Assembly: GCA_011109175.1 (NCBI GenBank)
Contig: RDEW01000022.1
Location: forward strand, 163,611-227,610
Direction of reading: 5' to 3'
DNA: 64,000 nucleotides
Source: Dicyema japonicum
Taxonomy: Eukaryota > Dicyemida > Rhombozoa > Dicyemidae
The position numbers and the translations under genes are program-made. Shown here in pieces: positions 2,759-57,810 of the stretch. Below the pieces are notes generated by a model. It made no database searches. It saw only the letters and a program-made list of their open reading frames with translations, and had not been told where the DNA came from. Numbering within the stretch: the first letter of the stretch is position 1; every line of letters begins with the position of its first letter.

Positions 2759-4500
2759 CAGGAAAAGTACATCCCGACATTTCTGGAAAACTCTTAAACA
2801 AGTCAAGTCGGAACTGGATGATGCAGACGGAACCGGAAAGTCTTCTCCTGAACACTTATACCACCTACATCCTAACACCCTTATGAAACATTACGCTGGA
2901 ATTAGCTTCAAACCATTCTCGAAACACCTGGACATTAAGGTGCGTGCCCATAAACCGAAGAAGGAACCTTACCACGAACTATTCACAGATGACCAAGTCT
3001 TGGATGTGATCACCAGATTAAAGAGCTCACGGGCGTGCGGGCCTGACAAAGTATCTTCTATTCACCTAAAACACCTAAGCCACTACGCAATTGGCTACCT
3101 CACGCATATATACAACCTGTCCATTAACTATAATATTACTTCTCAAGATTTGGAAGAATTCTATTATCAGACCGATATTGAAGGCTGGAAAATCAGAGAC
3201 AGAACCTGCATCCTACAGGCCTATTTCCGTTACCAGCACACTATCAAAAATTATGGAGAAACTTGTATTATCAGTCATTATTCCGTATCTTCCGCGTCCT
3301 ATATTTCAACATGGTTTCCTCCGCGGTAGGTCCATCGCTACATACTTGGCAACTTTATCGCAGTTCATTGCCGACGGTTTTAACACCCATCCTCCGCCTC
3401 ACAAACGCACAATCTTGGTTTCTATTGACATCAACAAAGCCTTTGACACTGTTTCGAGGAAAATCTGGTTGGAACAATATTTTCTACTAATATTCGTCCG
3501 AATGTGAAATTATGGCTGGCCAACTTTTTGTCTGGAAGACGTGGAAGAGTAGTCAGTGGTGATCTCAGATCTAGATCACGATTACTACCGAACGGGGTAC
3601 CCCAGGGGTCTCCACTTTCACCAATTCTATTCAACCTATTCCTACACGACCTACCTAATGATGGAGACGAAGATTCCCTGCTATTATCCTACGCAGACGA
3701 TGTAGTCATTGCAATACGGAACCGCTTGACGCAAGTCGCATCCCTTAAAACTCAGACAAAATTGAACACTCTCCACGATTGGATTGTTGGCAATCGACTA
3801 ACGATTTCTTCAACCAAGTCTATCTGTTCCACATTCACGTCGGACCGTCGTTCCAAGGATGAACCGAGTATTTTTATTGGTCCCGCTCGGATTCCAGTGA
3901 CAAGGTCCCCCACTGTCCTTGGAGTCATGTACGACAGCCTTCTCAAATTCAACTCCCACGCAACAGACATGATCACCAGGGGCCTCAAGAAAGTTAACGT
4001 TATACGCGCCCTTGTTCAGAGGACCACTAGGAACATGGACTTTTCCGTTTCTACCATTTACCAACAAACAATCGCGCCTGCCATTGAGTATGCTTCCGTT
4101 GCATGGAGATTCGGGCTATCGGAGTCTATGGTCCAAAGAATCAACTCGATATACCGGAAAACAATCAGTATGCTTTCCCCACGTAATGGATCAACAGTCG
4201 ACCCACTACTCATGGAAGCTAAGATCCGTAGTCGTGGCTCCGGATTTCTTCGCGTCTGTGAGGAAGATGGAAATCCGCTTCGCCTGATCCTTTCCATGGC
4301 AAGAGAAAACCGATTGGATAAGAAATTCCCTCTCCGATCGGATTCCTCTGCAAGACCGAGAGAAGGCTCTTCCGGAAAGTAGCGGGGACGATGGAAGATC
4401 ACAGACGTCGAATGGCACAATTGATTGCGAGGACTGAGATCACCTAACTGTTTGACTCTTTTGTCTTTCTTTCTCGGTGTTCCCGGGGTTATTAAATAAA

Positions 4501-14588: not shown

Positions 14589-15839
14589 TTAAGTGATCCC
14601 GGTACGCCTCAACAGGATCGAGAGGTTTTTCCTGTGTTCCTCCAGAGTACCCACGGCTTTCCTGAATAGACGACGATCATCTTTCATTAGAGTTTGAAGA
14701 GGAGTGGGTTTTTTCCCCAAATTTCGTGTATTTGAGGCCTTTAGCCTTGAATGGAAGAAACGACTTGTTTCTTGGCCACACAGACAGATGAAGCCGGAGC
14801 CATTATTTTTGATTGCGGCGTGGTCAAGCATTGGAGGGAAAAGATCGGGGGGTAGATTCGTTTGACGTGCTAGTTTTCCAATTAGGGTATTGATCTTGAG
14901 TGAATTTGATATCGAAGCTCCATAGGCCCATGAGGCACAGGCGTACTCAATCGTCGGTTTTAGGAGTTGATTGAACACGACGAGGGCGCATTCCTGTGAA
15001 GGTTTGGACTTCAAGAGCGGTTTGATAATATTAAGTTTCCTGAGACCCTTTGTCATAACGTTCTTCACATGTTGAGAAAATGTCATCAAAGGGTCAAATG
15101 TCACTCCCAGGATAGTTGGACGAGTCTGTAGTGGTAAGGAGTCTCCAAAAATGTTCAAATCAAGTGTATGTTTTTCTTTTCTGTCCGTGGTGAAAATTGT
15201 ATATGTTGATTTGTCCCTGGATACGGAGAGACGATTCATCTTCAACCAGGCTCCCAGGTCGTCAATATGTGACTGGAGCTCTGATTTTGCTGTACCCACG
15301 TATTTGTTCCTGCTAGCGATGATTAGGTCGTCAGCATAAGTGAGAAGCATTGAATCTGGTCCTCCAGGGCAGGGTAAATCGTTGAGGAACAAGTTGAATA
15401 ATGCCGGAGAGAGGGGCGATCCTTGAGGGACGCCATTTGGTAGGAGACGGGACCTCGATCTTGCCTGGCCTATACAGACACGTCCTCTTCTTCCGGAGAG
15501 AAAATTGGCTATCCATCTTTTCAAATCCGTCTGAATGGTGGTGCCAAAAACCTCCTTCGTGAGTAATGTTCTCGAGACAGAATCGAACGCCTTTTGGATA
15601 TCCAGGGAAACCACTATTGTCCGTAGATGGCGTTTCGGTACGTTGAACCCTTCTGATATAAATTGAGACAGTGAAGTCAAATGTGTCGTAGTTGAACGCT
15701 CACATTTGAAACCATGTTGTAAGTGGCAGTCGGGCAAATGGGGTTTAATTTTCCAGAGTACGAGTTCTCCATTAAGCGCGATAATGCGCACGTTAATGAA
15801 ATTGGACAGTAGGAAGAAGGTAAGGTTTTCGGTTTTCAT
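14589..15839 (-). CDS. Reverse transcriptase ORF of Jockey B
   Basis: This 416-residue frame is the longest intact RT stretch in the window. Visible motifs in order are LQHGFKCERSTTTHL (template contact, about residue 41), VVSLDIQKAFDSVSR (catalytic Asp, about 75), LPNGVPQGSPLSPALFNLF (about 132), LLTYADDLIIA (catalytic YADD, about 165), PTILGVTFDPLMTFSQHV (about 240) and a C-terminal region with ACASWAYG. The upstream fingers (SYCPISLTCALSRLMEN) are in another frame, so the first 30 residues of this frame are not genuine. The protein would copy LINE RNA at a nicked target. Confidence 0.85.
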   Translation of the reverse strand: MKTENLTFFLLSNFINVRIIALNGELVLWKIKPHLPDCHLQHGFKCERSTTTHLTSLSQFISEGFNVPKRHLRTIVVSLDIQKAFDSVSRTLLTKEVFGTTIQTDLKRWIANFLSGRRGRVCIGQARSRSRLLPNGVPQGSPLSPALFNLFLNDLPCPGGPDSMLLTYADDLIIASRNKYVGTAKSELQSHIDDLGAWLKMNRLSVSRDKSTYTIFTTDRKEKHTLDLNIFGDSLPLQTRPTILGVTFDPLMTFSQHVKNVMTKGLRKLNIIKPLLKSKPSQECALVVFNQLLKPTIEYACASWAYGASISNSLKINTLIGKLARQTNLPPDLFPPMLDHAAIKNNGSGFICLCGQETSRFFHSRLKASNTRNLGKKPTPLQTLMKDDRRLFRKAVGTLEEHRKNLSILLRRTGIT

Positions 15840-16815
15840 GGTTTAAGGATTGGTATTATAAGTGAGTTTTTCCATTTGCATGGGATGACGTTCATGTTCG
15901 AAGATAAATTAAAAATTGACGTAATCGAATTGATTGCAACATTATCAAGGTGTTTTAGCAAAATTCCCGGAATATCGTCAGGATACACGTATAAGATCTT
16001 TTCATCGATCTTATAGCCTGTGTGACCTCGACATGCGTATATAAATTGATCCACGAAGTTGGTTTAGGCATTAAATTCCTAAGGTGACAAGAATGTGATT
16101 TCGAGAAGTCCTTGTGACTTATGGATGCGTAGTATTTCATTAGATTGTTAGCTTGAACAGTATTTTGAGCAGAAAAAGATTCTGATTCATCTGATAAGTT
16201 TAGCTTGATTCGACGAATAGTTTTCCATAAAAGACTCGTAGATTTCATATGTCCAATAGATGATAATAGCCACTTCCACGCCTTATCTTTCTTTTCTCTG
16301 ATGAACTTTGTAATTCTCTGATTTAAGCATTTTATATTTTCCAAATCAGAAGAGGTTTGCAGATGATTCATCTTCAGTGAGTTTTTTTGTTTGACAATTC
16401 TCAGAGTCCAGAGAAGGCTAGTGGGATTTGTAAACTGCACGTGGTTCAAACAACTTTTCAGCAGGAAGGAATACATGGTTTAGATGGTCCACTGCTTTGT
16501 CGATGGAGCAAAATGAAGTGGGATCACAATAGAAATTTGTTCCGCGGTCTTGTGTAGAATTAAATAATCCACTTGCGAGCTCACATCGTGAAAGGATAAA
16601 ACGTTTTTAATAATGGTGAGTAAGCCGCAACCACGTACAATGCTGTCTTTTCTGATAGAGATGTATCCAGGAAAAATTGGGGTTGTACTGTTTGTAGAAA
16701 GTTTTGACTCCTGGATAAGGCAGATATCAGTCTTGTGCTTGGCTAATAAACATCATAACTCTAGAATCTTTGTTTTTATTCCGCTAGCATTGAGTTGCAT
16801 AATAACATGGGGTTT

Positions 16816-16842
16816 TGGTTCAGGCTTTTGTTCAATATCTCC
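16816..16842 (-). other. Degenerate 2A motif GDIEQKPEP (Jockey B)
   Basis: This occupies the same place as the 2A motif of copy A, but the essential N-P-G-P has become K-P-E-P, so skipping is not expected. Confidence 0.7.
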
Positions 16843-16993
16843 AGAAAGCAATGGAATTCAGGGGAACAAACAACATCTCTAGTTTCCAGTTGAGGTATAC
16901 GATCCAGGCATAAGGAGTCTGGATGGGAAAGAGCAAATGGTTTTTTTTGGTGTATTATTACACTGAGGGCCACCACAAAGGTGAACCACATGA

Positions 16994-18049
16994 CGCCACG
17001 AGAATAAAAATTTTTTTTAAACTGCCTATATTATTTAAAAAATTTTAAGAATAGAATATTATTTATTAACTATGGAGGAGAGCGCCTGCTGACATCACGG
17101 AGTAAGCTTAAGCATCTCCGCTTAAAGAAACAGCAAGCAGCATACAGAGCCCCGGTATTTCTCAACACAGGAACATAGTAGGTGTCTCTTAGCCACGTTA
17201 TTCATCCCTCTGCCATTGAAAGTAAGGATGTGTAGGTTATTGGATTGTTCTAAATGTTTTAGACATAAAAGCAAAATAGAGGTACGTCACCACCTCAACC
17301 AATAAGTTTTTGAAATTTGACAATTCTTAATGTACCCTTTCTCTCCTACCTCGTCTACAAAATTTAAAGAATTAATTATTTCGGGGTACATATCATTAAA
17401 TCCATTGCTTTAGTCAATTCTGTTGTTTCTATTTCAATTTTTTATTAAAGAATAAATTCGATGTTTAAAAATCCTCTTCTACAAAGTTTCACCGTATATA
17501 GTATGGTTATGATATATTTACGTCTAAATGAACAGGTCCCCGAAATGTCGCAATGAACAACTACTTCGGAAATACGAGAGCTGGATTCCGTCAACGCCGA
17601 TTATATTGAATGAAGACCTATCGGGGGTTGGTATTAGACTAACTCTGGGGTACGACCTAAAAGAACTACACGCAAGAGAAGATCATAGTCGAGGCTGACG
17701 GAGAGGATGATTCTGAATGCGGTACAGGGAAACTTTAGTGTCCAATCCGTCTTTCCTCCTAAGGTTGGTCTTGGAATTCTGAGTTTATCTCCAAAATTGA
17801 GAAAGTTTCTTCTCATACTTTGAGAAGGATTCTAGAATAATTAGACTTTGACCCAAATGGATGGTCTAGATTTTTGATCATTTAAAGGAAATATTGCTGG
17901 CGTTTTAATGAAGCATTATTGGTGTTTCGTTTAATGTTTTCCATAATAACAAGATAAAAGAGAGTCACAATAAAACTCTAACAGATCATAGATAACATAA
18001 CATGATTTATTTGCAAAACCCCAACTAACTAAACAAGGTAAGAGCCATT
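16994..18049. other. Spacer with weak minus-strand coding-like stretch
   Basis: A 60-residue minus frame at 17,634-17,816 (LRIPRPTLGGKTDWTLKF) looks like an eroded RT C-terminus, but I cannot place it. The rest is AT-rich. Confidence 0.3.
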
Positions 18050-18840
18050 AACTAAAAAGGAAAGCCAAGATTTGGGGTCGTCTATATCGGGGCACTCTCA
18101 TGAGACACCGTATGTCTCTTCTCCGTAAAAAGCCCCAATTACAATGCGAGTTTCCACAAGCAATGTAATAAATCACCGATTCTTCTCGTTTTTCTATTGT
18201 ATTCGTCATCAATTTCAGATGCTAAATCCAATCCATGTGCTTCAATTTAGTTTCATTTATAATTAGAACTTCCATCTGGATCGTGCTGGCTATAGCAACC
18301 AGCACTGAGGCCCGTTTCCGAAGAGAACGGGCATTAACCAGGGTTATCCTGACTACTTCTGGTTTTTTCGGTGGCTGCCCTCTCTTCTTAAGAGCACCAC
18401 TCTCTTCTCTGTGTTGAAGCTTCTACTGTTTCTTTTTTAGAAGGTTTCTTATTATTTGTCGTATTCCAGCCAGTCTGCCCATACATTCTAAACTCTGACT
18501 TTAATTTCTTATTCGTTCCAGTTTTGGAAACTTCACTTTCTCCATTATGGGCATTTTCTCGTTTTAGAAAAATTTTCCATTCGATTCTTTCCTTTTTTGG
18601 TCAATTTTGTTTTTCTTCGCAATGTTAGCTTCAACAGCCTTGGAGCATCTTCCATAATTTAGTTTCGTTTATAATTAGAACTTCCATCTGGATCGTGCTG
18701 GCTATAGCAACCAGCACTGAGGCCCGTTTCCAAAGAGAACGGGCATTAATCAGGGTTATCCTGACTACTTCTGGTTTTTTTTTCGGTCGCTGGCCTCTCT
18801 TCTCTGTATTGAAGCTTCTATAGATCAGGTCGGTGATCAG
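18050..18840 (-). mobile_element. LINE endonuclease N-terminus, partly duplicated
   Basis: The minus strand reads a hydrophilic linker followed by ITLVNARSLRKRASVLVAI and VLIINETKL, the opening strands of a LINE apurinic endonuclease. Part of it is present twice (about 18,235-18,410 and 18,655-18,830) with the same CAGCACGATCCAGATGGAAG stretch. The lineage is not Jockey A-like, and the rest of the domain is missing. Confidence 0.55.
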
Positions 18841-18867
18841 TCTTCTTAAATTTGAAGTTTACTAAAA

Positions 18868-19067
18868 CATGCTAAATTTTACCAATGCATTATCATCCAA
18901 AGGGCAAACTTAATTTATGTTTTTCTTAATTTCTTTAAGAACGAGATGATGTGGTCCATTTATACTAAACCATGCTAAATTTTACCAATGCGTTATCATC
19001 CAAAGGGCAAACTTAATTTATGTTTTTCTTAATTTCTTTAAGAACGAGATGATGTGGTCCATTTATA
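18868..19067. repeat. Tandem duplication of about 97 bp
   Basis: AAACATGCTAAATTTTACCAATGC... through GAACGAGATGATGTGGTCCA occurs at about 18,863-18,961 and again at about 18,966-19,066. The second copy carries one G/A change. A smaller duplication, CACTCGTCACTGCGTG, follows at about 19,122. Confidence 0.85.
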
Positions 19068-19398
19068 AAATAATAATTTCCGGAAGAAAAAAAGACCAAA
19101 CTAAACGATACTAGTGAATCACTCGTCACTGCGTGCTCACTCGTCACTGCGTGATAGATCAAAGGAAGACGACAGGGCAAGGGAGAGAGCCCTATTGAAA
19201 TTCATTAGGATCACATAAATTTTGAAAATCCATACAGAGTAGGGACAAAATGAACAGGTCTCTAGTTAAAAAAATATATCTGGCTGTGAGCCAACAGAAA
19301 TGACACGTCTCAGCCGTCTCAGAAAATCAATGCGTAAATATTTTAAGTAATAAAGACGATTAACCCATTTAACCAAAAAGAAATCATAATTAGCTTAA

Positions 19399-19745
19399 CT
19401 AAAGGAATGGTTCGGTAAAGAGTGATTCATTACGGGATTTCATTTTGATGTAAATATTAGCAATTACGCCAGTAAGTATTATAAATAGTACCAATGACAA
19501 CACTAGTCCGAAGATTCCAATTATTTGATGTTTCGTCAGTTTTTTTATGGATTCATTTTCAGACGATATTAGTTCTTCAAAACTTATTTTATCTAAAATT
19601 CAAACAAGTTTACTCACCATCTGCAATATTATGATGTTTAATCGTGGTTTTGTTTTTAATTTCAGTAGATGATTGTGTTTCAAAGCATCCTTCATATAAA
19701 ATTCAGTCAGATTTATTATCCTCATTTTCCAATATGGAAATCACC
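19399..19745 (-). pseudogene. Membrane-protein family member G3, 3' end only
   Basis: The last two exons of the family described at 21,531-22,832 are present: EGCFETQSSTEIKNK, a 25-nt GT...TTTTAG intron (19,593-19,617), then KISFEELIS and a transmembrane segment (IIGIFGLVLSLVLFIILTGV) with the tail ESLFTEPFL and stop 19,399-19,401. The acceptor of the preceding intron reads TTTTAT instead of TTTTAG, and everything upstream is replaced by other repeat sequence. It is a truncated relic. Its sequence shows what the 3' end of G2 would have been. Confidence 0.75.
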
Positions 19746-20203
19746 TCGCGTCCCCATTTTTAGAAATGTCGGATACAAGGAAGTATTGGATACACCAATT
19801 TCTGTGTTCGAATCTTATCTGGCCAAAATTGGTGGACCTTAGATATGTGTGCCTTGTGAAGGAATAAGAGTTAGTTATTGTTTTTCAAATGTTCTTAATA
19901 GAAATGATAATATCTGAATCAAGATACTAGGTATCTTGATGTCCAAATATTTTGCCTACGTACTAAAGAAATGAATTCATATTCTCACTAAAAAAAGTGG
20001 TCTGGGATCACAGGGTACATTATTTTTCTCGTTTGCCCAAGTGATTCATTTTATTTAACCATAATAATTAGTCAATAATGGTTCCACTGATTAATTAGAA
20101 TTTTTTATTTTAAAAAATTATTCATTTAAGGATTTGTTAAGTTAATTCAATATTTGGGAGACTACGCAGAGAGGATCCGGAAATTTATGGAGGCTGGTAT
20201 TAT
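19746..20203. other. Spacer with short dispersed repeat
   Basis: The segment TCCTCATTTTCCAATATGG... to ATTTTTAGAAATGTCGGATA (19,730-19,785) recurs at 23,920-23,977. Its symmetrical position beside family G pieces suggests the end of an unknown element. No gene is seen. Confidence 0.45.
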
Positions 20204-21420
20204 TATTATTATTAACCCAAGAATACCAATAGTTAATTTATTACTAAATTAAGTGATCTCGAAGGATTCAATCAGAATTCTCATTTTCTCCTCGTGCGCC
20301 TGAGATCCAACACAACTCTGTAGGTGGAGTGTTTTCAGGAATAGGTATTGGAAAGGGGTGATGTATTCCCTTCTCACAAGACACGTCGTGAATGTGTATT
20401 GTTGAGAGTTGCTTGCTTGCACAGGGTAGCAAATTAGTTTCCATTTTGTAGGATAAAGTCTTCAAGTGATGAGGGTATTAGTTTTTCTGGTTTCCAGAGA
20501 TCACTAATAGTAGTGGTTTTTAAGGCCTGAATGTCCCTGTTTCTTTGTTTGTTCGTCCAGGACAGATTAATTCTCCATGACGTACAGGCATGGCTGACAG
20601 ATGGCTCAATGAATTGTTTGTACAACAATTTCAAAGCAGGGAAAGGGGTTTTAATGCCACCGAAAATAGTTTTGATTATCCCTAGCTTTCTTGAGCAGCT
20701 TCCAGAGACGGCGTCGACGTGAGATGATAAGGACATGTGTGTGTCGAAGGTAATCCCGAAGATATTCAGTTTCTTCGTGAAAGGTATTTTCGTCTGGTTG
20801 ATAAATATTTCCACTGTCATTTGTTCAAGTCGTTTTCTGAGGTAAATAAAGACAAAGAAGATTTTTCAGTAGATATATCTAGCCGGTTATAATTTAGCCA
20901 AATTTAATCTTGTGAAGGTATTCTTGTAGTCTTTCTAATGCCTTTGGGATATCTTGATCGCGGGATCCGATTAATAAGTAATCACCATATGATAAGATGA
21001 AATCGTCTTTATTATAAGAGTTGTGGTAAATCGAACATGTATAAGTTAAATAAGGCGGGTGATAAAGGGGAACCTTGTGGACACCATTGGGTAATAATAT
21101 TGAAATTGGTCCAATTCATGTATATCCGGGCCCTTCTTCCATTTATGAAGTTAGTAAACCAATGTTTTTTTTGGTGTAATCGGGGAGAACAAACAACTTC
21201 CGGGTTAGGATTTTTCTTAAGACAGAGTCGAAGGCCTTTTATAAATCAATCGACAAACGACTGTTTTAATTTGTGTTAAAGCCTTCAATGATAAATTAAT
21301 TGACAAAAGTTAGGTTGGTAGACTGCTGCATATTATCAAAGCGACTCCAATCCACTTGAGGAGGCTTTTTTTGAAAGCATCTTAGCATTTTTTCGAAAAC
21401 AGTAGGGATTTTTGGTATAC
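20204..21420 (-). mobile_element. Jockey-like LINE copy E, 5'-truncated and decayed
   Basis: The minus strand reads KAFDSVLRKI (about 21,240), then a heavily broken palm, KLNIFGITFDTHMSLSSHV (about 20,770), a C-terminal WRINLSWTNKQRNRDIQAL (about 20,570) and a tail to about 20,270. The 3' end carries AATAATAATAATAATACC (about 20,213-20,200). This copy and fragment D are the same subfamily. The YADD box is not intact. Confidence 0.75.
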
Positions 21421-21530
21421 TTTCGTTATATTTGACAAAATAAAAAATTTTGTAAAATTTTAGAATATAGACTGTAATTCAAATAATTATAAAAATTTGA
21501 ATAAATTGAAGAAGATTTGACAAATTAATA

Positions 21531-22832
21531 TTAGTTAGTTACAAAGGTTAATGGAATGCTTTCTTGTATTTCAGTATGTGATTTCGGTTTGATATAAATA
21601 ACGAAAATGATACATGTGACTATTACTGCGACAACTCCACACACGATTCCAACTTTTTGAAGTTTCGTCAATTTTTTTAAGGCTTTACTTTCAGACAAAA
21701 GTAGTTTTTCAGTACTTATTTTATCTAAAATTTAGTCGGTTTACAGTATTACGATGGTTAATAGTGGTTTTTTTGTCTTTAATTTCAGTCGATATTGGTT
21801 CTTCAAAGCATCCTTCATCTAAAATTCAGTCGGATTTATTAACCATCTCCAATAAATTCAAAAATTAAATCATTGCGGAAAAATTGTAATTTGAGAGATG
21901 AAATTTTGATAGTCACATTATTATAGTTTTGTGAGATGATTCCACAATGATAAAATCTTCCCATTTTAATTTGTTTAAATTGTTTTTCAAGTGAAACACA
22001 TTTAATTCTTCTATACCCAACACAAACAGAAAAATTATGAATATGATATTTATTCTTATATTGTTTATTAGCCATAAATGTTATAGTAGTATGATCACTA
22101 GTCAATATATATTTATATTCACTATAATAATTTGTTAAAATATTATAATCATAATCACTGAAATGCTCATCTGTTATCTAAGAATCAATGTTCATGTGTA
22201 CAATTGTGTTATTGTCAATATATGATATTTTGATAATTCCACTTATTACTCCTTGGATTCTATTTTTGTTAAATAAAAACCAAATCGGCGTATTTGGGTC
22301 ATTATTTGGGTTACAGTCATTAGCTAAATAAATCTTTATTAGAACCTTTTCCAGTAAAATAATCAAAATAATCATCATTGTGATATTGCAACTTGTTCGA
22401 ATAAATTGTAACAGATAAATAATTCGTAAAAATAATATGAGTAAAACCGCATCTGTAGTATTCCCCATATTTAGTTTGTGGTATCTTTGTGATATTTGTG
22501 TAATGTTTACCACCTTAATTATAACAATAAACGTACCATAAACAATTTCTGTTATTAAGTCAATAGTATAAAACTCATTGTAAAAGTGAGGAATTAGTTT
22601 AAAATTTATATTATCACGAGATAACCTATAGTCTCCACGAGTTTTCCAGTGATCTATATGTTGATCGTTTTTTAACTTCCATAAACTATTTTCCTAAAGT
22701 TAATGAAATATATACTATAGATGGATTCTCATAAATTATATATGAATCAATTAATAAATATTTCTCATAGCATATTATTTTGACGATTTTGCTTAACAGA
22801 ATAAATATGATAAAATGAATAGTTCTGTTCAT
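21531..22832 (-). CDS. Predicted type I membrane protein G1, seven exons, novel family
   Basis: Start codon 22,832-22,830, stop 21,533-21,531. Exons are 22,832-22,716, 22,693-22,537, 22,513-22,346, 22,323-22,202, 22,177-21,844, 21,818-21,753 and 21,724-21,531. The six introns are 22, 23, 22, 24, 25 and 28 nt; the spliced length is 1,158 nt (385 residues) with no internal stop. Residues 1-20 are a hydrophobic signal-type segment. The ectodomain has two homologous halves, one ending YYRCG (Cys113) then GKG, the other FYHCG (Cys266) then GDG. Exon 4 contributes CNPNNDP (Cys151) and the stem has EGCFE. N-glycosylation sequons (NIT, NNT, NVT) occur. One transmembrane segment spans about 346-366, with a 19-residue tail. 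I recognise no known family. Paralogues are G2, G3 and G4. The gene lies in the left arm of an inverted duplication. Confidence 0.75.
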
Positions 22833-22950
22833 TTAATCTAAATTTTATTAGGTCAAAGTTTATTATATTTTAATTTTTGACATTATTTTTTATTTAATTA
22901 TTTTAAATATTAATAATAATAGATATTTTATTACGATTTTTAAATAAATA

Positions 22951-22982
22951 CAGTAAAGTCTCTCGAATCCTGCTATTTTGGG
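22951..22982 (+). repeat. Pogo-like terminal sequence upstream of G1
   Basis: TA is followed by CAGTAAAGTCTCTCGAATCC and TGCTATTTTGG, which resembles the ends of pogo/Tigger elements. The same block, inverted, lies upstream of G2 (34,179-34,210 then TA), marking the junction between the gene arm and LINE material in both arms. Confidence 0.45.
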
Positions 22983-23155
22983 CTGAAGTCTGTTGGCCAT
23001 ATTCTAAAAATGCACCCAAGCACGTCAGCAGATGTTATCACGAAGGAGTACTTTGCAGCATCTGGGAAAAGATTCCTTATACATCCAATTACGACACTTC
23101 TTAATCCTATGTTCCAATTGAAGTGGATTTGCTGAGGTTCAAGATGCCGAAGTAA
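22983..23155 (+). mobile_element. RTE-Y LINE C-terminal fragment
   Basis: The plus strand reads LKSVGHILKMHPSTSADVIT then KEYFAASGKRFLIH, matching the minus-strand copy at 30,640-30,840 almost residue for residue. It is the C-terminus of an RTE-like polymerase, fused here to a Jockey fragment. Confidence 0.7.
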
Positions 23156-23920
23156 ACTCTACAGTATGTTTCAGAAACTAAATATAGAGTATAACTGAGC
23201 ATTCCTGCGATAAACTAGTCAGGTAAGAGAGCATCGCATTCACACAGTTAAGTTTCCACAGACCACTCGTAAAAACATTGTTCACGTGGTGATAGAACGA
23301 TAGAACCAGGACAAATGTCACTCAAGATTCTCGAGTGAGTTTTTAAGGATATCATTTCGTCTAAATTTAACACAAACTCTTCTTTTGGTCCACTATCCGC
23401 AGAAAAATAGAATAGGAAAACTTTCGGGGAACAAAAAAATCTTTCTCTTGAGGAATTATAACTTGGTCGTGAAGTAAGTCATTTTCATAAGTCAATAGTA
23501 CTAAATTTATTTTATCATAAGTTAAGGAGTCCCAGGAGGAGAAGATCTCTCAAGAACATTATCGTGAGATATAGTGATTGTCTTACACAAACTCGTTTTC
23601 TCTGTCCTGTATATAAGTTGGTAAATCTTAGCTTCATTTTGGGTTAAGTCGAGCGTCACATAATTTCTTAGTAACAATTTTTCATGACACCGAATGTAAA
23701 TCAAACAAGAACAATCACTGGAATTCCCTTATATGCGGATGTGGGTGTATGTGATACTCGGGCTCCCATTTAATAGTTAAAGGAATAAGCAAGAAAAAAA
23801 TAGCTTACAATAACTGTAAGCACTATAATAAAATAGTATTTTTAGACTGAAAACAAGCGCTTGTTCAGAACTCATGAAGTAGCAATAGTGCACTATAACA
23901 TGATTCTATTATACATAATA
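23156..23920 (-). mobile_element. Decayed Jockey RT fragment (left arm)
   Basis: In broken minus-strand frames I read a GVTF-type motif followed by YHHVNNVFTSGLWKLN and LSQECSV, aligning with the 'LGVTFDPLMTFSQHV... SQECALV' part of Jockey B. Upstream, KEEFVLNLDEMISLK fits the strand before it. The matching inverted copy is at 29,830-30,640 plus. Confidence 0.6.
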
Positions 23921-34328: not shown

Positions 34329-35461
34329 ATGAACAGAACTATTCATTTTATCATATTTATTCTGTTAAGCAAAATCGTCAAAATAATATGCTATGAGAAA
34401 TATTTATTAATTGATTCATATATAATTTATGAGAATCCATCTATAGTATATATTTCATTAACTTTAGGAAAATAGTTTATGGATGTTAAAAAACGATCAA
34501 CATATAGATGACTGGAAAACTCGTGGAGAGTATAGGTTATCTCTTGATAATATAAATTTTAAACTAATTCCTCACTTTTACAATGAGTTTTATACTATTG
34601 ACTTAATAACAGAAATTGTTTATGGTACGTTTTTTGTTATAATTAAGGTGGTAAACATTACACAAATATCACAAAGATACCACAAACTAAATATGGGGAA
34701 TACTACAGATGCGGTTTTACTCATATTAGTTTTACGAATTATTTATCTGTTACAATTTATTCGAACAAGTTGCAATATCACAATGATGATTATTTTGATT
34801 ATTTTACTGGAAAAGGTTCTAATAAAGATTTATTTAGCTAATGACTGTAACCCAAATAATGACCCAAATACGCCGATTTGGTTTTTATTTAACAAAAATA
34901 GAATCCAAGGAGTAATAAGTGGAATTATCAAAATATCATATATTGACAATAACACAATTGTACACATGAACATTGATTCTTAGATAACAGATGAGCATTT
35001 CAGTGATATGATTATAATATTTTAACAAATTATTATAGTGATTATAAATATATATTGACTAGTGATCATACTACTATAACATTTACGGCTTATAAACAAA
35101 ATAAGAATAAATATCATATTCATAATTTTTCTGTTTGTGTTGGGTATAGAAAAAATAAATGTGTTTCACTTGAAAAACAATTTAAACAAATTAAAATGGG
35201 AGGATTTTATCATTGTGGATTCATCTCACAAAGCTATAATAATGTGACTATCGAAATTTCATCTCTCAAATTACAATTTTTCCGCAATGATCTGAGTTTT
35301 GAATTTATTGGAGATGGTTAATAAATCCGACTGAATTTTAGATGAAGGATGCTCTACTCAAATTAAAAACAAAACCACGATTAAACATCATAATATTGCA
35401 GATGGTGAGTAAACTTGTTTGAATTTTAGATAAAATAAGTTTTGAAGAACTAATATCGTCT
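34329..35461 (+). pseudogene. Membrane-protein family member G2, frameshifted and cut by a LINE
   Basis: This plus-strand copy has the same signal segment, exons and ultrashort introns as G1 (start codon 34,329). One T is missing in exon 5 (GTGATATG here, GTGATTATG in G1), which shifts the frame. After the stem exon and its 25-nt intron (about 35,405-35,429) the last exon stops after about 30 nt, where Jockey C begins at about 35,462. The transmembrane segment is therefore lost. From the start to the EGC motif it follows G1; after that it matches G3, so it is a mosaic of two paralogues. Confidence 0.8.
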
Positions 35462-43125: not shown

Positions 43126-45115
43126 ACAAGGATTGACTAACAAGGACAAACTGTCTCTGTGTGGGGACGTCAAAACAAACCCAAGACCCCTAACGATCAT
43201 GCAAATCAAATAAACGGGATCAAATGTTAGATCATCGAACTCAGAAACCTTTTGGAAAAAATATCGAATTGACGTCCTTCTAATACAAGAATCCACACTC
43301 AAAAGTGCGGATCCTAAGTTATCCGCAGAGATAGATGTGAAAAACTTGGGGGAGGCTTACTAACTATCATCCAAAACGGGATCCCTTATGAGGAAATCAC
43401 CAAATACGATTACAACCGCCTTCAAACCATGAAAATATCGAAATTCTGGCCACAAAAATCCAACCCCCAAGGTTATGTCTTACTCTGATCAATTAACATC
43501 TACCTCTTTTATCATCAGCCATTGCATAAATTTTTCGTCGATCAGGTCACTAAAGAACGTTCTATGCGGTGACCTAAATACAAAACACTCGCTCTGGCAG
43601 AAAGGTCAGACGTCAAACAGGCCGGGAGAAATGATAATCGAAGACTTGGGAACCTTTTGCATCCTAATCGACCCTAACTTTCACACAAGAACCCCCTCAA
43701 GACAAAATGATACACCATCATCTTCTGACGTTTCAATCGCGTCTCCCCTTCTGGCTTCTTCAATTTCATGGAACGTGAAATACGAAACTATGAGTGATCA
43801 CAATCCGATCAATTTACAAATAAAAACAAGATCAAATTATAGAAGCCCTACTTTGATAAATTATTTCCTTGCTGACTGGCCAAGATTTGCGAGGTATATT
43901 GACATGCAGATCAAGTTATCAAAACTACATGCAGCCTCATCACTAAACAACATCATAAAGCAGTTCTCCTCGTTCATTCAAGAAGCTAGAAAATTATATG
44001 TTCCAATAGGATGACAACCGACAAACAGGCGATTCAATTCAACAACCAAACATTTAGTCAAAGATAGAATCTAATTAAAAAAAGAACATACCGTCGATGT
44101 AGGATTTAATAAGAATTCGTACACTAACCAAAGAGATTAACAAATTTATCATAAACAAGCAAAACGCTATACGAAACAATCATACGCCCTAACAGTAAAG
44201 CCGTCAGTCCAAAAGGTATGGAACAAAATCTATCAAAAGGTTTTTTGATGAACTGTAAAATAGGATATCATTACAACAAAACACCTTAATGTAATATTAT
44301 GCTTCCATAGCACAAAAAACCATTCCAAAGAACATCAAGTAGTCTTAAACAAAATAAAACAGCAAGGATCATACTTGTGGATCATTTTACGGAGAAAGAG
44401 TCCAGTAGGCAATATCAAAGGCCCGAAACTTTAAAGCCCGAGGTCTAGAGAATATTTCTACAACGGAACTAAAGCATCTAGGACCTCTTGCTTTAGATTT
44501 AATTGCTTACATATTCACAAAATGAATAAATATGAACAGTATTCCGGATGTCTGGAAGAGATCATACATCAAATCGATCTAGAAGCCAGGAAAATCCGAA
44601 AATAACTCCTCTTCCTACAAACCAATCTCAATCTTATGTTCACTTTCCGAATTATCGAAAGAATAGTTTTTTAAATATCAAAGACTACATCCCGATCGTT
44701 CTTTTCTAATACGGATTCAGGACTAAACACCGCACAGCAACATACCTAACGTCCCTGTGCCAGTTCATCGCAGAGGGATTCAATTTTACTAAACCACACC
44801 AACGAACAGACTTTGTCTCTGTTGATATAACAAAGGCTTTCGACGCAGTTTCAAGAAAATCTTTTACAGAGACCAGCCCATAGAAAATCTCTTAATCGAA
44901 TCACTTGAAGAGGCTAGTTTATTGAGCTGCCCTCTATTCCATACACAGTCGTACAATAATTTTGAAGCGATGTCATGTCCAATGAGAAATGGTATTCAGG
45001 ATTCTCGACCCCACTAAACTCGTCCTATCCGAAGTCGGTCTGAATCACTTAGTTAGTTGAGAACCTATTATTTTATTTCTTTGACCCAGTGATCCTGGAG
45101 GTAATAATAATATAT
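43126..45115 (+). mobile_element. Jockey-like LINE copy G, degenerate
   Basis: It carries a decayed 2A motif (43,163-43,189), MQIK.NGIK, GGGLLTIIQN (about 43,350), VLCGDLNTKHSLW (about 43,560, endonuclease Asp/Asn) and MSDHNPINLQI (about 43,795, endonuclease SDH). An RT remnant follows with GKSENNSSSYKPIS (about 44,590) and TKAFDAVSRK (about 44,835). After position 44,870 it jumps to the C-terminal PIENLLIES, so the palm with YADD is deleted. The 3' end has TAATAATAATA at about 45,100. It is the same subfamily as copy H. Confidence 0.82.
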
Positions 45116-45779: not shown

Positions 45780-46965
45780 TTAAAGAACAGGAATATATTC
45801 CAATGGTCTTATAATATTTCTGCATTTTATAACAAATGTGATGAGTCCGCTGATTGTAAGAGTTAGAACAGATAACACAATTCCTATAATCATATAATTT
45901 TTTGAATGATTGTAATTTGTATTTTTTCCAGGAGTTACTTCTTCAAAACACTTTGACTCTAAAATTCAAAAGAAAGTCAAACCTTTTCCAGTATAATTTG
46001 ATAACATATCACTCGGAAGAATTTGTACCTTAAATGATGAAAACTCAGCATATATGTCATCAGAAAATCTAGTGAGAGACAATTTGAAATTACAGGAATT
46101 TCCAACATCAATCAATTTACTCTTATTAGGACTCCAAGAACCATTATAGATTTTATAGACGACTATCTGAATTTTGGAGATATAATATTTGTTTTGAGAG
46201 AAAACAAATGTAAAATATATTTCAAAATGTCGCCCCTTAAGAGATAACTTAACACTATTGTTATCAAAATTAATCTTCGTCTTCAGATTTTCGAAAAAAA
46301 CTAACAAATCATTAATCTAATATTAAAATATACAATTTACTATTTCAAAATTGTGATTATAAGAAATTGTGATACTAAAATGCCCACTTAATATTCCTTT
46401 TAGTCTATTTTCCCCAATAAAATACCAATATCGAACTTTTGGATCGTTAGATGGATCACAGTCATGTGCTGAAATAAATTATATCAATTAAATTATATTA
46501 AACCTTTACCAATAAAATATGGATATGATTGTTTAGTGTAATATTCTATCACCAAAGAATATAATGTGAGAGTATTACCATTCTCAAAACTTACGGACAT
46601 ATATCCGCATCTGTAATAATTTCCATGTTTAATATTTGGAAGATTTGTTGTATTTGTGTAGGTTTTATTATCTTTGAGTGTTAACTATTAAATACTAGAA
46701 TTTAATTCTATTTTTATTGAGATGTTGTAAAATTTGTCTGAGAATTCAATAAAAAAATGGTAGATCACGTTATTTGTTTTAATTGTAATTGGCTTTTTAC
46801 CATAGGACTGGTAAGAACTAACTTTAATTGAATATTTGTTTTTCTACCAAATTATTTACAAAATACATTTGTTAGTGTACTTTTCAATAAACTTTTAAAA
46901 TATACTGACATTCGATGTTCAAAGTCGAAATTCCTGATTGAGGACAAAAATATTAACAACAACAT
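45780..46965 (-). CDS. Predicted type I membrane protein G4, six exons, same family as G1
   Basis: Start codon 46,965-46,963, stop 45,782-45,780. Exons are 46,965-46,867, 46,843-46,696, 46,671-46,504, 46,468-46,341, 46,316-45,983 and 45,958-45,780. The introns are 23, 24, 35, 24 and 24 nt; the total is 1,056 nt (351 residues) with no internal stop. Intron positions and phases match G1; exon 3 (168 nt) and exon 5 (334 nt) have identical lengths in both genes. Shared motifs are YYRCG, GKG at a phase-1 junction, CDPSNDP for CNPNNDP, YTGKG and KCFEE. A transmembrane segment (MIIGIVLSVLTLTISGLITF) and tail PLEYIPVL follow. The stem intron 6 of G1 is absent. Residue identity to G1 is low, so selection on structure is likely. 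The short N-terminus MLLLIFLSS is a weak signal peptide, and the true start could lie further upstream. Confidence 0.72.
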
Positions 46966-47360
46966 AATCTGTAAATTGAACACGTCGATGTGTATAATTT
47001 AGGTCACTTGTTATACTAATGAATTTATTTTTAATAATTAAAAAAATGACATTTTTATAATTTTATAATTATACTTATTTTCATGAATTCAATCAAGAAA
47101 ATCCTATTCCNAAATTACATTTGTTAGTGTACTTTTCAATAAACTTTTAAAATATAGTGATATTCGATGTTCAAAGTCGAAATTCCTGATTGAGGACAAA
47201 AATATTAACAACAACATAATCTGTAAATTGAACACGTCGATGTGTATAATTTAGGTCACTTGTTATACTAATGAATTTATTTTTAATAATTAAAAAAATG
47301 ATTTTATAATTTTATAATTATACTTATTTTCATGAATTCAATCAAGAAAATCCTATTCCT
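46854..47360. repeat. Duplicated 250-bp block around a single N
   Basis: The 5' end of G4 and its upstream region (about 46,861-47,110) is repeated at 47,112-47,360 with a handful of substitutions and a small indel. The single N at 47,111 lies exactly between. The second copy is best read as an unmerged contig end or the other allele, not a second gene. Confidence 0.88.
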
Positions 47361-55914: not shown

Positions 55915-57810
55915 CAGTCGAACCCCGGGGTGGGGCATCAAAGTGCCCCAAAAAGCGGGGGTGCCCTCCAAAACCGGGGTTTGGTTCAAACTATTGATTT
56001 ATGGTTGATTTAACTTAAATTTTTGTTTACTTTGCGAAAAAGGAACTTCTTCACTTCTTTCAAAGTGTTTATAAAATAAGTTGTGATTTTTTGTTCTATA
56101 GTTTGATAGATTTTTATTCTATGTTTTTTATTCGATTTTTATTAATTAACAAATCATTATTTTTAAAGCATTTTTTTGAAATAATCAGTCAATTTCAAAT
56201 TTTTTTTATTTCTTAGATCTTTTCCAAGTTGAAATCTAAACTCATAATATTTTTGTAATGTCTCAAAAGATGTATTTTGAGCTACATTTTCTAACTTATC
56301 CATCATTTCATAAGTTTCTGATATCGTTGTTTTTCCTCTGTGTCAACTCCATTATAAAACTCGCAACTCTTGACTAGATCTTCGTTTTCTTCAGATATTA
56401 CTTCAGATACTATTTCTTCCAGGAGTTCTTCCCCACAATTTTTATCTTCAACTGATTCTTCTCTATTTTCCTCAATTTTCTTCCAACAATTAATTATTGT
56501 TGTTTCTTTAACTTCCATCCACGCTTTTTTAACAAGTACCATAATCTGTCGCATATCTATATTTTTCAAAGATTTAAGATTAATTGTTGTATCTTCTTCC
56601 AAATTGAGCATAAAGTCCATTAGGAAGTTTGTGTAATGTACTTTAAAACATTTTATTATACCCATGTCTAAAAGTTGAATCAAAGATGTTGTGTTTTTCG
56701 GAAGAAAAAACAATTTAACATTTGAGTATTCCAATAAAGAATGGCATGTAGCATTATCCATTATTAAAAGTATTTTTCTATCTTGTGAGAGAAAGTCGTC
56801 GTTAATCTTTGAAAGCCACATTTTGAAAATTTCTCTATTCATCCAGGAATTTTTTGACGCTGCATATAATATACCGAATTTTTCACAATCAAAATCTATG
56901 TTAAAATATAATTAAGCAAACTTTTCATACAACGTGGTGATTTGTATTTTCCAATAACAAGGGTCTTAATTTATTTCCTGCTGCATTACAGCAAAGGAGA
57001 ACTGTTACTCTTTCTTTACTGAATATTGTACCATGACATGTTTCTATAGATTCGACATAAGATCTTGAAAAAAATTTTTTAACATACAATGATGTTTCAT
57101 CACAGTTAAAAATATTTTCATGACCATAAGTTTTCAACAAATTATCGAATTGAAAAAAAAAATTTGCCAAATTACTTTTATCTGCTGAATTTTTTCACCA
57201 CAAATGGCTTTAAAAACCAGACCATGTCTCTTTTTAAATCTGTCTAACCAACCGTTTGAGGCTTTAAAAGATGTTGAATAATTCAATTTTGTCGATATTT
57301 TTTTCGCGATGGCTTTGATTAAAGTACCCGAAATAGAAAAGGAATCATCCCTCAAACGACGAAAAGCATTAAAAGTTAATTCGTCAAGTTTTTCAAATTG
57401 ATTGACTTCATTAGAAACTGGTTTAACTTCATCTATTTGAACTAATCTTGAAATGACTGATCCGGTATTAATGAAAGAAGAAATGTTTTTTTTGATTCGG
57501 GAAATAGTGCCTTTGCTTATCTTGAATTTTTTTGCAACTTCTCTTTCAGAAGAAGTTTGTAGACACTTTGCAATTTTAATTTTTGTTTCAATAGAAATTT
57601 TGGAAGGCATTACACAAAGACAATTATCACGTGTTCAAAAATAATATTATTCAAAATAATATTATGTAATAAAATATTAAAATAAATTAATAAAGTGCAC
57701 CATACTGGGGTTTTAATAATTTCCAAATTTGGAAATTATTAATGGAAAATGTACTAGAAAATAAAATCGCCCCAAAAAGCCGGGGGTTTTATTGGGGCGG
57801 GGTTCGACTG
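55915..57810 (-). mobile_element. Complete Tigger/pogo DNA transposon, 1,896 bp
   Basis: The element has 13-bp terminal inverted repeats CAGTCGAACCCCG (55,915-55,927 and 57,798-57,810) and a TA duplication outside (55,913-55,914 and 57,811-57,812). The uninterrupted target is visible in the family Q copy at about 51,395 (TCCTGTTATTAATTC). Inside both ends lies GCCCCAAAAAGC followed by GGGGGT in the same orientation. A perfect 30-bp palindrome is at 57,713-57,742. It encodes one transposase on the minus strand. Confidence 0.95.
56303..57610 (-). pseudogene. Tigger/pogo transposase (CENP-B-like HTH plus DDE), frameshifted
   Basis: The minus strand starts at ATG 57,610-57,608. The N-terminal helix-turn-helix (SEREVAKKFKISKGTISRIK) is followed by a CENP-B-type second DNA-binding domain (NGWLDRFKKRHGLVFK, about 57,250). 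The catalytic core then reads NIFNCDETSLY (first Asp, about 57,105), ILLIMDNATCHS (second Asp, about 56,775) and FFLPKNTTSLIQLLDMGII (third Asp, about 56,670). An acidic C-terminus ends at 56,303. All three Asp of the DDD triad are present. Frame changes occur at a run of ten A/T (about 57,155), near 56,955 and near 56,880. The first is a homopolymer where an assembly error is possible. Confidence 0.92.

Follow-up and report, generated by a model that had tools for sequence, protein, structure and literature searches.

A multicopy family of probable, strongly diverged LAMP proteins behind very short introns in Dicyema japonicum

What kind of protein is encoded on the minus strand at positions 22832..21531 of a 64,000-nucleotide (nt) stretch of contig RDEW01000022.1 of the dicyemid Dicyema japonicum, and what are its many relatives in the same genome? 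The whole of this stretch is referred to below as the window, the gene as G1 and a second such gene, further along the window on the same strand, as G4. A first-pass annotation had proposed that both belong to an unrecognised family of membrane proteins, and it is this last point that has to be given up. Matches to the Pfam family PF01299, the presence of more orthodox LAMP-like genes in the same genome, introns common to both sets and a YxxPhi signal at the end of the G4-type proteins suggest that the G1 and G4 family are diverged LAMPs, with LAMP homology and layout, lineage-specific and greatly expanded, a reading to which we give a probability of about 0.88.

The gene models themselves stand. 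Respliced at the coordinates of the first-pass annotation, G1 has seven exons, six GT-AG introns (22, 23, 22, 24, 25 and 28 nt) and a complete frame of 385 amino acids (aa) with its stop at 21531, and splicing by hand and with a spliced-alignment program led to the identical model. The program works by dynamic programming, with codons, frameshifts and introns of 18-40 nt as its elements; GT-AG ends are a condition that it sets for introns and not a finding. Its model of G4 agrees with the 351 aa first described at 46965..45780, with introns of 23, 24, 35, 24 and 24 nt; the seven exons once ascribed to both genes are true of G1, whereas G4 has 6. Exons 3 and 5 are of equal length in the two genes, as had been noticed, at 168 and 334 nt.

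The assembly that was scanned for relatives comprises 64,672,829 bases in 191 contigs, the genome having been published as 67.5 Mb with 5,012 predicted genes (PMC6736024). Paired boxes occur in it at four places, seen as 8 exon-level matches. The first query was an unspliced G1 frame of 171 residues (22178-22693), in which exons 2 and 4 are read in frame and exon 3 out of frame; it gave 151 matches, the best 150 of which merge to 112 places, and a query with G4 gave 129 matches. Merged, the two queries mark at least 137 places, counting fragments, on 50 contigs, and the true number may be higher, since scoring was limited to the best candidates; contigs C1 and C87 carry 19 and 16 of them. From these places 74 copies were modelled, three of them inside the window (L043 duplicates L041), and the models are beyond chance: they score 232-2014 (median 1173) in the spliced alignment, where 40 shuffled loci reach no more than 61. 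Among models with no more than three frameshifts 257 of 273 introns are 21-25 nt long, L041 and L043, which are one gene, being counted twice. Dicyemid introns have been reported with a mean of 26.2 nt for 16 introns from seven cloned genes (PMC2222250), and with a median of 27 bp in Dicyema sp. compared with 57 bp in an orthonectid (PMC6543705). Most of the 74 models have intron places and phases in common, and the positions in G1 and G4 are as follows.

22832-22716, 22693-22537, 22513-22346, 22323-22202, 22177-21844, 21818-21753 and 21724-21531 (including the stop), minus strand: G1 gene, seven exons, 385 aa.
22694..22715, minus strand: G1 intron 1, 22 nt, phase 0; exact place and phase in 55 of 70 models.
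22514..22536, minus strand: G1 intron 2, 23 nt, phase 1; exact place and phase in 67 of 72 models.
22324..22345, minus strand: G1 intron 3, 22 nt, phase 1, splitting codon 148, three residues ahead of C151, the last Cys of domain 1; 70 of 74 models.
22178..22201, minus strand: G1 intron 4, 24 nt, phase 0, six residues past ISY, early in domain 2; 62 of 74 models.
21819..21843, minus strand: G1 intron 5, 25 nt, phase 1, splitting codon 300, three residues ahead of C303, the last Cys of domain 2; 67 of 71 models.
21725..21752, minus strand: G1 intron 6, 28 nt, phase 1, in the stem and in the G1 type only; 25 of 48 models.
22347..22766, minus strand, limits approximate: predicted G1 domain 1, a diverged LAMP-type luminal domain, residues ~23-147; C151 is in exon 4 and Y-x-C lies 38 residues before the last Cys.
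21808..22321, minus strand, limits approximate: predicted G1 domain 2, a diverged LAMP-type luminal domain, residues ~149-303, with the motif LKLQFFRND and the last Cys, C303.
21531..21653, minus strand: G1 transmembrane segment (residues ~346-366, by eye) and tail KPKSHTEIQESIPLTFVTN, which has neither YxxPhi nor [DE]xxx[LM][LI].
46965-46867, 46843-46696, 46671-46504, 46468-46341, 46316-45983 and 45958-45780 (including the stop), minus strand: G4 gene, six exons, 351 aa.
45780..45800, minus strand: G4 C-terminus EYIPVL and stop, a YxxPhi at the LAMP position.

The predicted layout is that of a type I membrane protein, which would consist of a signal peptide, two tandem LAMP-type luminal domains, a short stem, one transmembrane segment and a short cytoplasmic tail, the signal peptide and the transmembrane segment being judged by eye. 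An alignment of 14 members has 13 invariant columns, including Y111, C113, D150, C151, W162, S175, G176, Q286, G298 and C303 in G1 numbering, and the commonest pattern is GxYYxC ... DC in half 1 and VGxxxxC ... LKxQFFRND ... CFE in half 2, where the first Cys of the G4 type stands two residues earlier. The profiles of domains 1 and 2 align with a probability of 94.8% and a score of 51.8, which none of 100 column shuffles reached (at most 17.5), and they indicate that the two ectodomain halves are homologous. This was already part of the first description, as was a multicopy, fast-diverging, single-pass family that is seen only once introns of 20-30 nt are taken out, and both parts of it are borne out. 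Residues 21-300 of 22 intact proteins contain 3-9 N-glycosylation sequons, with counts near those of shuffled sequences in the G1 type and above them by at least 0.9 in 8 of 10 G4-type proteins.

The link to LAMPs starts from PF01299, the LAMP luminal domain, a whole-genome scan with which gave five matches (E 0.03-0.68), every one of them inside this family. PF01299 matches 7 of the 14 members (E up to 10, best E 8.1e-4), and in these seven it is the top family, with its best stretch in domain 2 (8 of the 14 members were rescanned). G1 itself is not matched by PF01299, the domain 2 matches being in G4 and other members, and the best score of 19.7 bits misses, on single sequences, the curated cut-off of 27.2, which is a detection threshold and not a structural trait. 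Other searches gave little: a protein search with the single sequence of G1 found no relatives at E up to 10 among 1,857 candidates, Pfam returned for G1 SUR7 alone (E 0.039) and the PDB one Tudor chain (E 1.6), whilst the family profile matched two membrane segments in the PDB and nothing else, and NCBIfam gave four families with one member each, the best at E 0.086. The first-pass annotation had named a profile match to a known transposon protein as something that would refute it; G1 gave no match to a transposon or retroelement protein family at E up to 10, and the eight families listed with the 14 members include none either.

A bridge is provided by four other places in the genome, marked by PF21222 (LAMP2 transmembrane/tail) at 27.1, 25.9, 20.1 and 19.1 bits with a cut-off of 27. 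These are the LAMP-like genes L075 (two genes), L076 and L077, each encoding a LAMP-like domain and a LAMP-type membrane segment, and their C-termini, unlike those of the G1 and G4 family, read SYEEV, NYEPL, SYEEL and NYQEI. The four models are partial, with 2-5 program-made breaks each, some at unrecognised introns; spliced, all four match PF21222 (E 3.7e-5 to 0.011) and one matches PF01299 (E 0.0046). They carry the motifs LKAQFFRSD...FMGD and GDYFFC...VKLQMFRHDD...FVGN, continued across a short intron by ALDC and AIDC respectively, and this phase-1 intron of 22-26 nt just ahead of the last Cys is present in all four, matching introns 3 and 5 of the family. Furthermore, in three of the four a candidate phase-0 intron of 22-28 nt lies 5-6 residues past NVTY/NVNY, and its counterpart, intron 4 of the family, lies six residues past ISY in both G1 and G4. 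One of the LAMP-like genes, Lb, shows only the last two Cys, as does the family. The two genes of L075 stand in tandem on the minus strand at C1:1195050-1197900, and a long Thr-rich repeat (TTTTTTPNTTM...) precedes the one at C1:1196440, like a mucin-type stalk.

In profile-profile comparisons the four LAMP-like genes align with family domain 2 and the membrane part at 98.1% (E 7.9e-14), with domain 2 alone at 97.6% (score 75.1, at most 22.3 in 100 shuffles) and with domain 1 alone at 94.5% (score 50.9, at most 21.2 in 100 shuffles). On their other side they align with vertebrate LAMPs, represented by the letters of PDB entries, at 97.1% (E 6.7e-11) when the membrane part is included, and at only 9.3% over the luminal part alone. 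The direct comparison of family domain 2 with the vertebrate LAMP luminal domain scores 25.9, with at most 17.2 in 100 shuffles, at a probability of only 15.6%, and the alignment is in register with the VGNSYKC...QAF...EEC motif; domain 1 scores 16.7, as high as one of 100 shuffles and so at the edge of chance. The membrane segment of the family also aligns with that of LAMP. The luminal fold of LAMPs is a beta-prism, and when a low-confidence single-sequence model of G4 domain 2 was compared by Foldseek with 350,542 PDB chains, LAMP-1 (5gv0) was the third match and LAMP-3 (4akm) the fourth and the eighth. An unrelated, new beta-sandwich family that has come to look like LAMP by convergence would sit well with the single-sequence PF01299 scores under the cut-off, yet it would have to account for intron places and phases common to the family and the more orthodox genes, for profile matches far above shuffles over the whole domain and membrane segment, and for a genome scan in which PF01299 finds this family and nothing else; we regard it as very improbable.

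As diverged LAMPs, the proteins of this family have both likenesses to and differences from the known ones. LAMP-1 and LAMP-2 (PF01299 + PF21222) likewise have two tandem homologous luminal domains, one transmembrane segment and a short basic tail, a last Cys loop of ~37 residues with the pattern Y-x-C ... QAF/AQFF ... C, and a C-terminal YxxPhi, which is found in most G4-type genes. Unlike them, the family has, across the 14 members of the alignment, a single conserved pair of Cys in each domain instead of the two pairs expected of a LAMP luminal domain (the vertebrate LAMP letters have four invariant Cys), has no long hinge between the domains, stands at 14-15% identity in the profile alignments, is spread over its many places in the genome and, in the G1 group, has an altered tail. 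The single-domain LAMPs similar to LAMP-3/DC-LAMP, here the L075, L076 and L077 genes, are alike in the luminal domain and in the two introns described above, but in them a single LAMP domain is read, in some following a Thr-rich stretch, whereas the G1 and G4 family has two domains and no such stretch. The V-ATPase subunit S1/Ac45 luminal domain (PF05827) is matched weakly by one of three vertebrate LAMP sequences (E 0.0045), and so the LAMP and Ac45 luminal domains are probably related. Ac45 was also considered as a nearer relative of the family; an exon-level genome scan with PF05827 was without a match, although the scan rang in no control and absence is therefore not shown. The Y-x-C motif had also been considered as Ig-like, a reading given up when the LAMP pattern proved to fit the domain as a whole.

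Does the family behave like lysosomal proteins? Adaptor complexes recognise YxxPhi and acidic dileucine motifs, and the C-terminus could be read in 49 of the 74 models. Of 16 readable G4-type tails 14 end in YxxPhi (EYLPVL, EYIPIF, VYVPIL and others), the remaining two being ELIPML and EHIPLL; among four readable L33-type tails one has YxxPhi, and the others are ENIPMI, ESIPML and ENFPLL. All five tails in these two types that lack YxxPhi end in [DE]xxx[LM][LI]; no chance rate was computed for these counts of either motif. None of 29 readable G1-type tails has YxxPhi, nine have [DE]xxxL[LI] (for example ESIPLI) and 20 have neither motif, G1 of the window reading ESIPLT. The unreadable ends belong to 24 further G1-type models, several with another last exon, and one G4-type model. 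A second tail, ...IKMKSRNESLFTEPFLKLS..., recurs in L006, L010, L012, L015, L018, L051 and other G1-type copies, replacing ...ESIPLTFVTN. Judged from these predicted ends, the G4-type tails point to sorting to endosomes and lysosomes, and in the G1 group the YxxPhi signal is lost or altered.

The proteins would be made in the secretory pathway, and the tail motif, YxxPhi in most G4-type proteins and [DE]xxx[LM][LI] in some others, would be read by adaptor complexes and so bring them to endosomes and lysosomes, where the luminal domains may contribute to the protective membrane coat. An endolysosomal role is somewhat better than an even bet for the G4-type genes, and our confidence is lower for G1. 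Dicyemids are described as absorbing nutrients from the urine of the host, with the outer cells taking them in by endocytosis, and the top six multi-copy gene clusters of D. japonicum as linked to endocytosis, whilst the main text of that genome paper contains no occurrence of 'lamp' (PMC6736024). An expanded LAMP set would fit such an endocytic life: in an animal that probably feeds through its outer cells in this way the LAMP coat would be a main surface of contact with host fluid, and membrane glycoproteins of endosomes and lysosomes are what the G1 and G4 family most likely are.

The G1 group may instead go to the cell surface, as its 20 tails with neither sorting motif would allow, and the copies, above all those of this group, could then be a repertoire derived from LAMPs that is placed at the plasma membrane and diversifies where it faces the host or other dicyemids. 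Antigens, receptors and adhesion molecules are the roles that would come into question, as they did in the first-pass annotation. Besides the tails and the at least 137 places, the way in which the copies change has a bearing on this. By the NG86 method the median ratio of replacement to synonymous rates (dN/dS) is 0.95, for 101 pairs with dS under 0.8 from 22 intact proteins. Against a null made from the intron changes of the family itself, eight intact pairs picked by hand reached 1.28 as a whole and 1.57 in domain 1, values that none of the 60 simulations attained, and the membrane part with the tail gave 1.04. Pairs chosen by rule did not fully bear out this excess, and for that reason positive selection is not claimed: replacement over synonymous change was 3.59 in six G1 pairs and 4.21 in five G4 pairs among 11 intact pairs, and 3.22 in 17 G1 pairs and 3.56 in three G4 pairs among 20 broken ones, the null being ~3.5. 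Domain 1 of the intact G4-type pairs alone stands out, with 5.44 against 4.54 in broken pairs. That the excess shrinks in this way, and that most readable G4-type genes keep a tail of the lysosomal type, speaks against a surface repertoire, which we hold to be possible though rather doubtful.

Stop codons are fewer than expected. The intact pairs, chosen as such, have none where 55-67 would be expected, and the 20 broken pairs have 13 where 100-128 would be expected, a depletion of about eight- to tenfold; with replacement near the null this means that frames are kept whilst amino acids change at about the neutral rate. Such a combination fits either diversification or relaxed selection with rapid turnover. 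A further rival reading is a largely decaying family, made of recent LAMP duplicates that were carried by duplications in transposon-rich stretches and are mostly under relaxed selection, and there are observations in keeping with it: 50 of the 74 models have a frameshift or stop, dN/dS is near 1, and an inverted duplication carries G1 and a third copy on its two arms, the window also having reverse-transcriptase and transposase genes. However, the depletion of stops extends to the broken copies, intron places and phases are kept, and the invariant columns of the 14 aligned members include Cys, Trp and Gly. Over the 74 models there are 178 frameshifts to 19 stops, so that many of the 'broken' copies may be errors of assembly (indels) or very recent losses and not old pseudogenes; 24 models are free of both, 17 of them full length. 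General decay seems unlikely to us.

In a quick tree built from 54 rows of the family, for which the four LAMP-like genes served as root and which was flagged for long branches and uneven letter make-up, the G1, G4 and L33 types each form one group, G4 with L33. One history that could be written for these types starts with an internal duplication in a LAMP gene, which then spread to more than 100 loci in the dicyemid, the G4 type keeping the lysosomal tail and the G1 type losing it to become a variable repertoire on the cell surface facing the cephalopod host; taken as a whole this would seem doubtful. If it were true, the surface branch would be LAMPs turned into a variable gene family.

LAMPs are few in well-studied animals, and at least 137 matching places in a genome of 64.7 Mb would be a striking LAMP expansion. 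The family would tie an unusual gene set to the question of how a parasite that has no gut and takes up matter by endocytosis may feed and encounter its host, and it offers concrete sequences for asking whether a lysosomal coat protein can turn into a variable surface family. It also illustrates that a whole family can go unnoticed where introns are 20-25 nt long and sequences diverge fast.

The remaining features of the window concern further pieces of the family and the repeats around them.

34329..35449, plus strand: third family copy, 98% identical to G1 across 1176 bp, with one frameshift and its 3' end replaced.
19513..19718, minus strand: fragment oriented like G1 and 79% identical to its 3' end (21645-21841).

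The inverted duplication has its arms at 14801-23914 and 37471-29835, with colinear blocks in inverted order that are 86-98% identical and extra sequence between the blocks on both arms; G1 and the third copy lie on opposite arms. Reverse-transcriptase frames (RVT_1) are found at 3447-4382 on the plus strand and 14589-15842 on the minus strand (E 3e-15 and 3e-26), and an Exo_endo_phos_2 match lies in a separate frame at 43433-44014 on the plus strand (E 1e-9). A DDE_1 transposase at 56303-57634 on the minus strand (E 1e-26) has a Tc5-type DNA-binding domain on an adjacent frame (E 1e-11), together a DNA transposon in two frames. An Rfam scan of the window at gathering scores gave no match. Finally, the 5' end of G4 and the part upstream of it lie in a 250-bp tandem duplication, 46860-47110 and 47112-47359, whose copies are 98% identical with an N at the joint.
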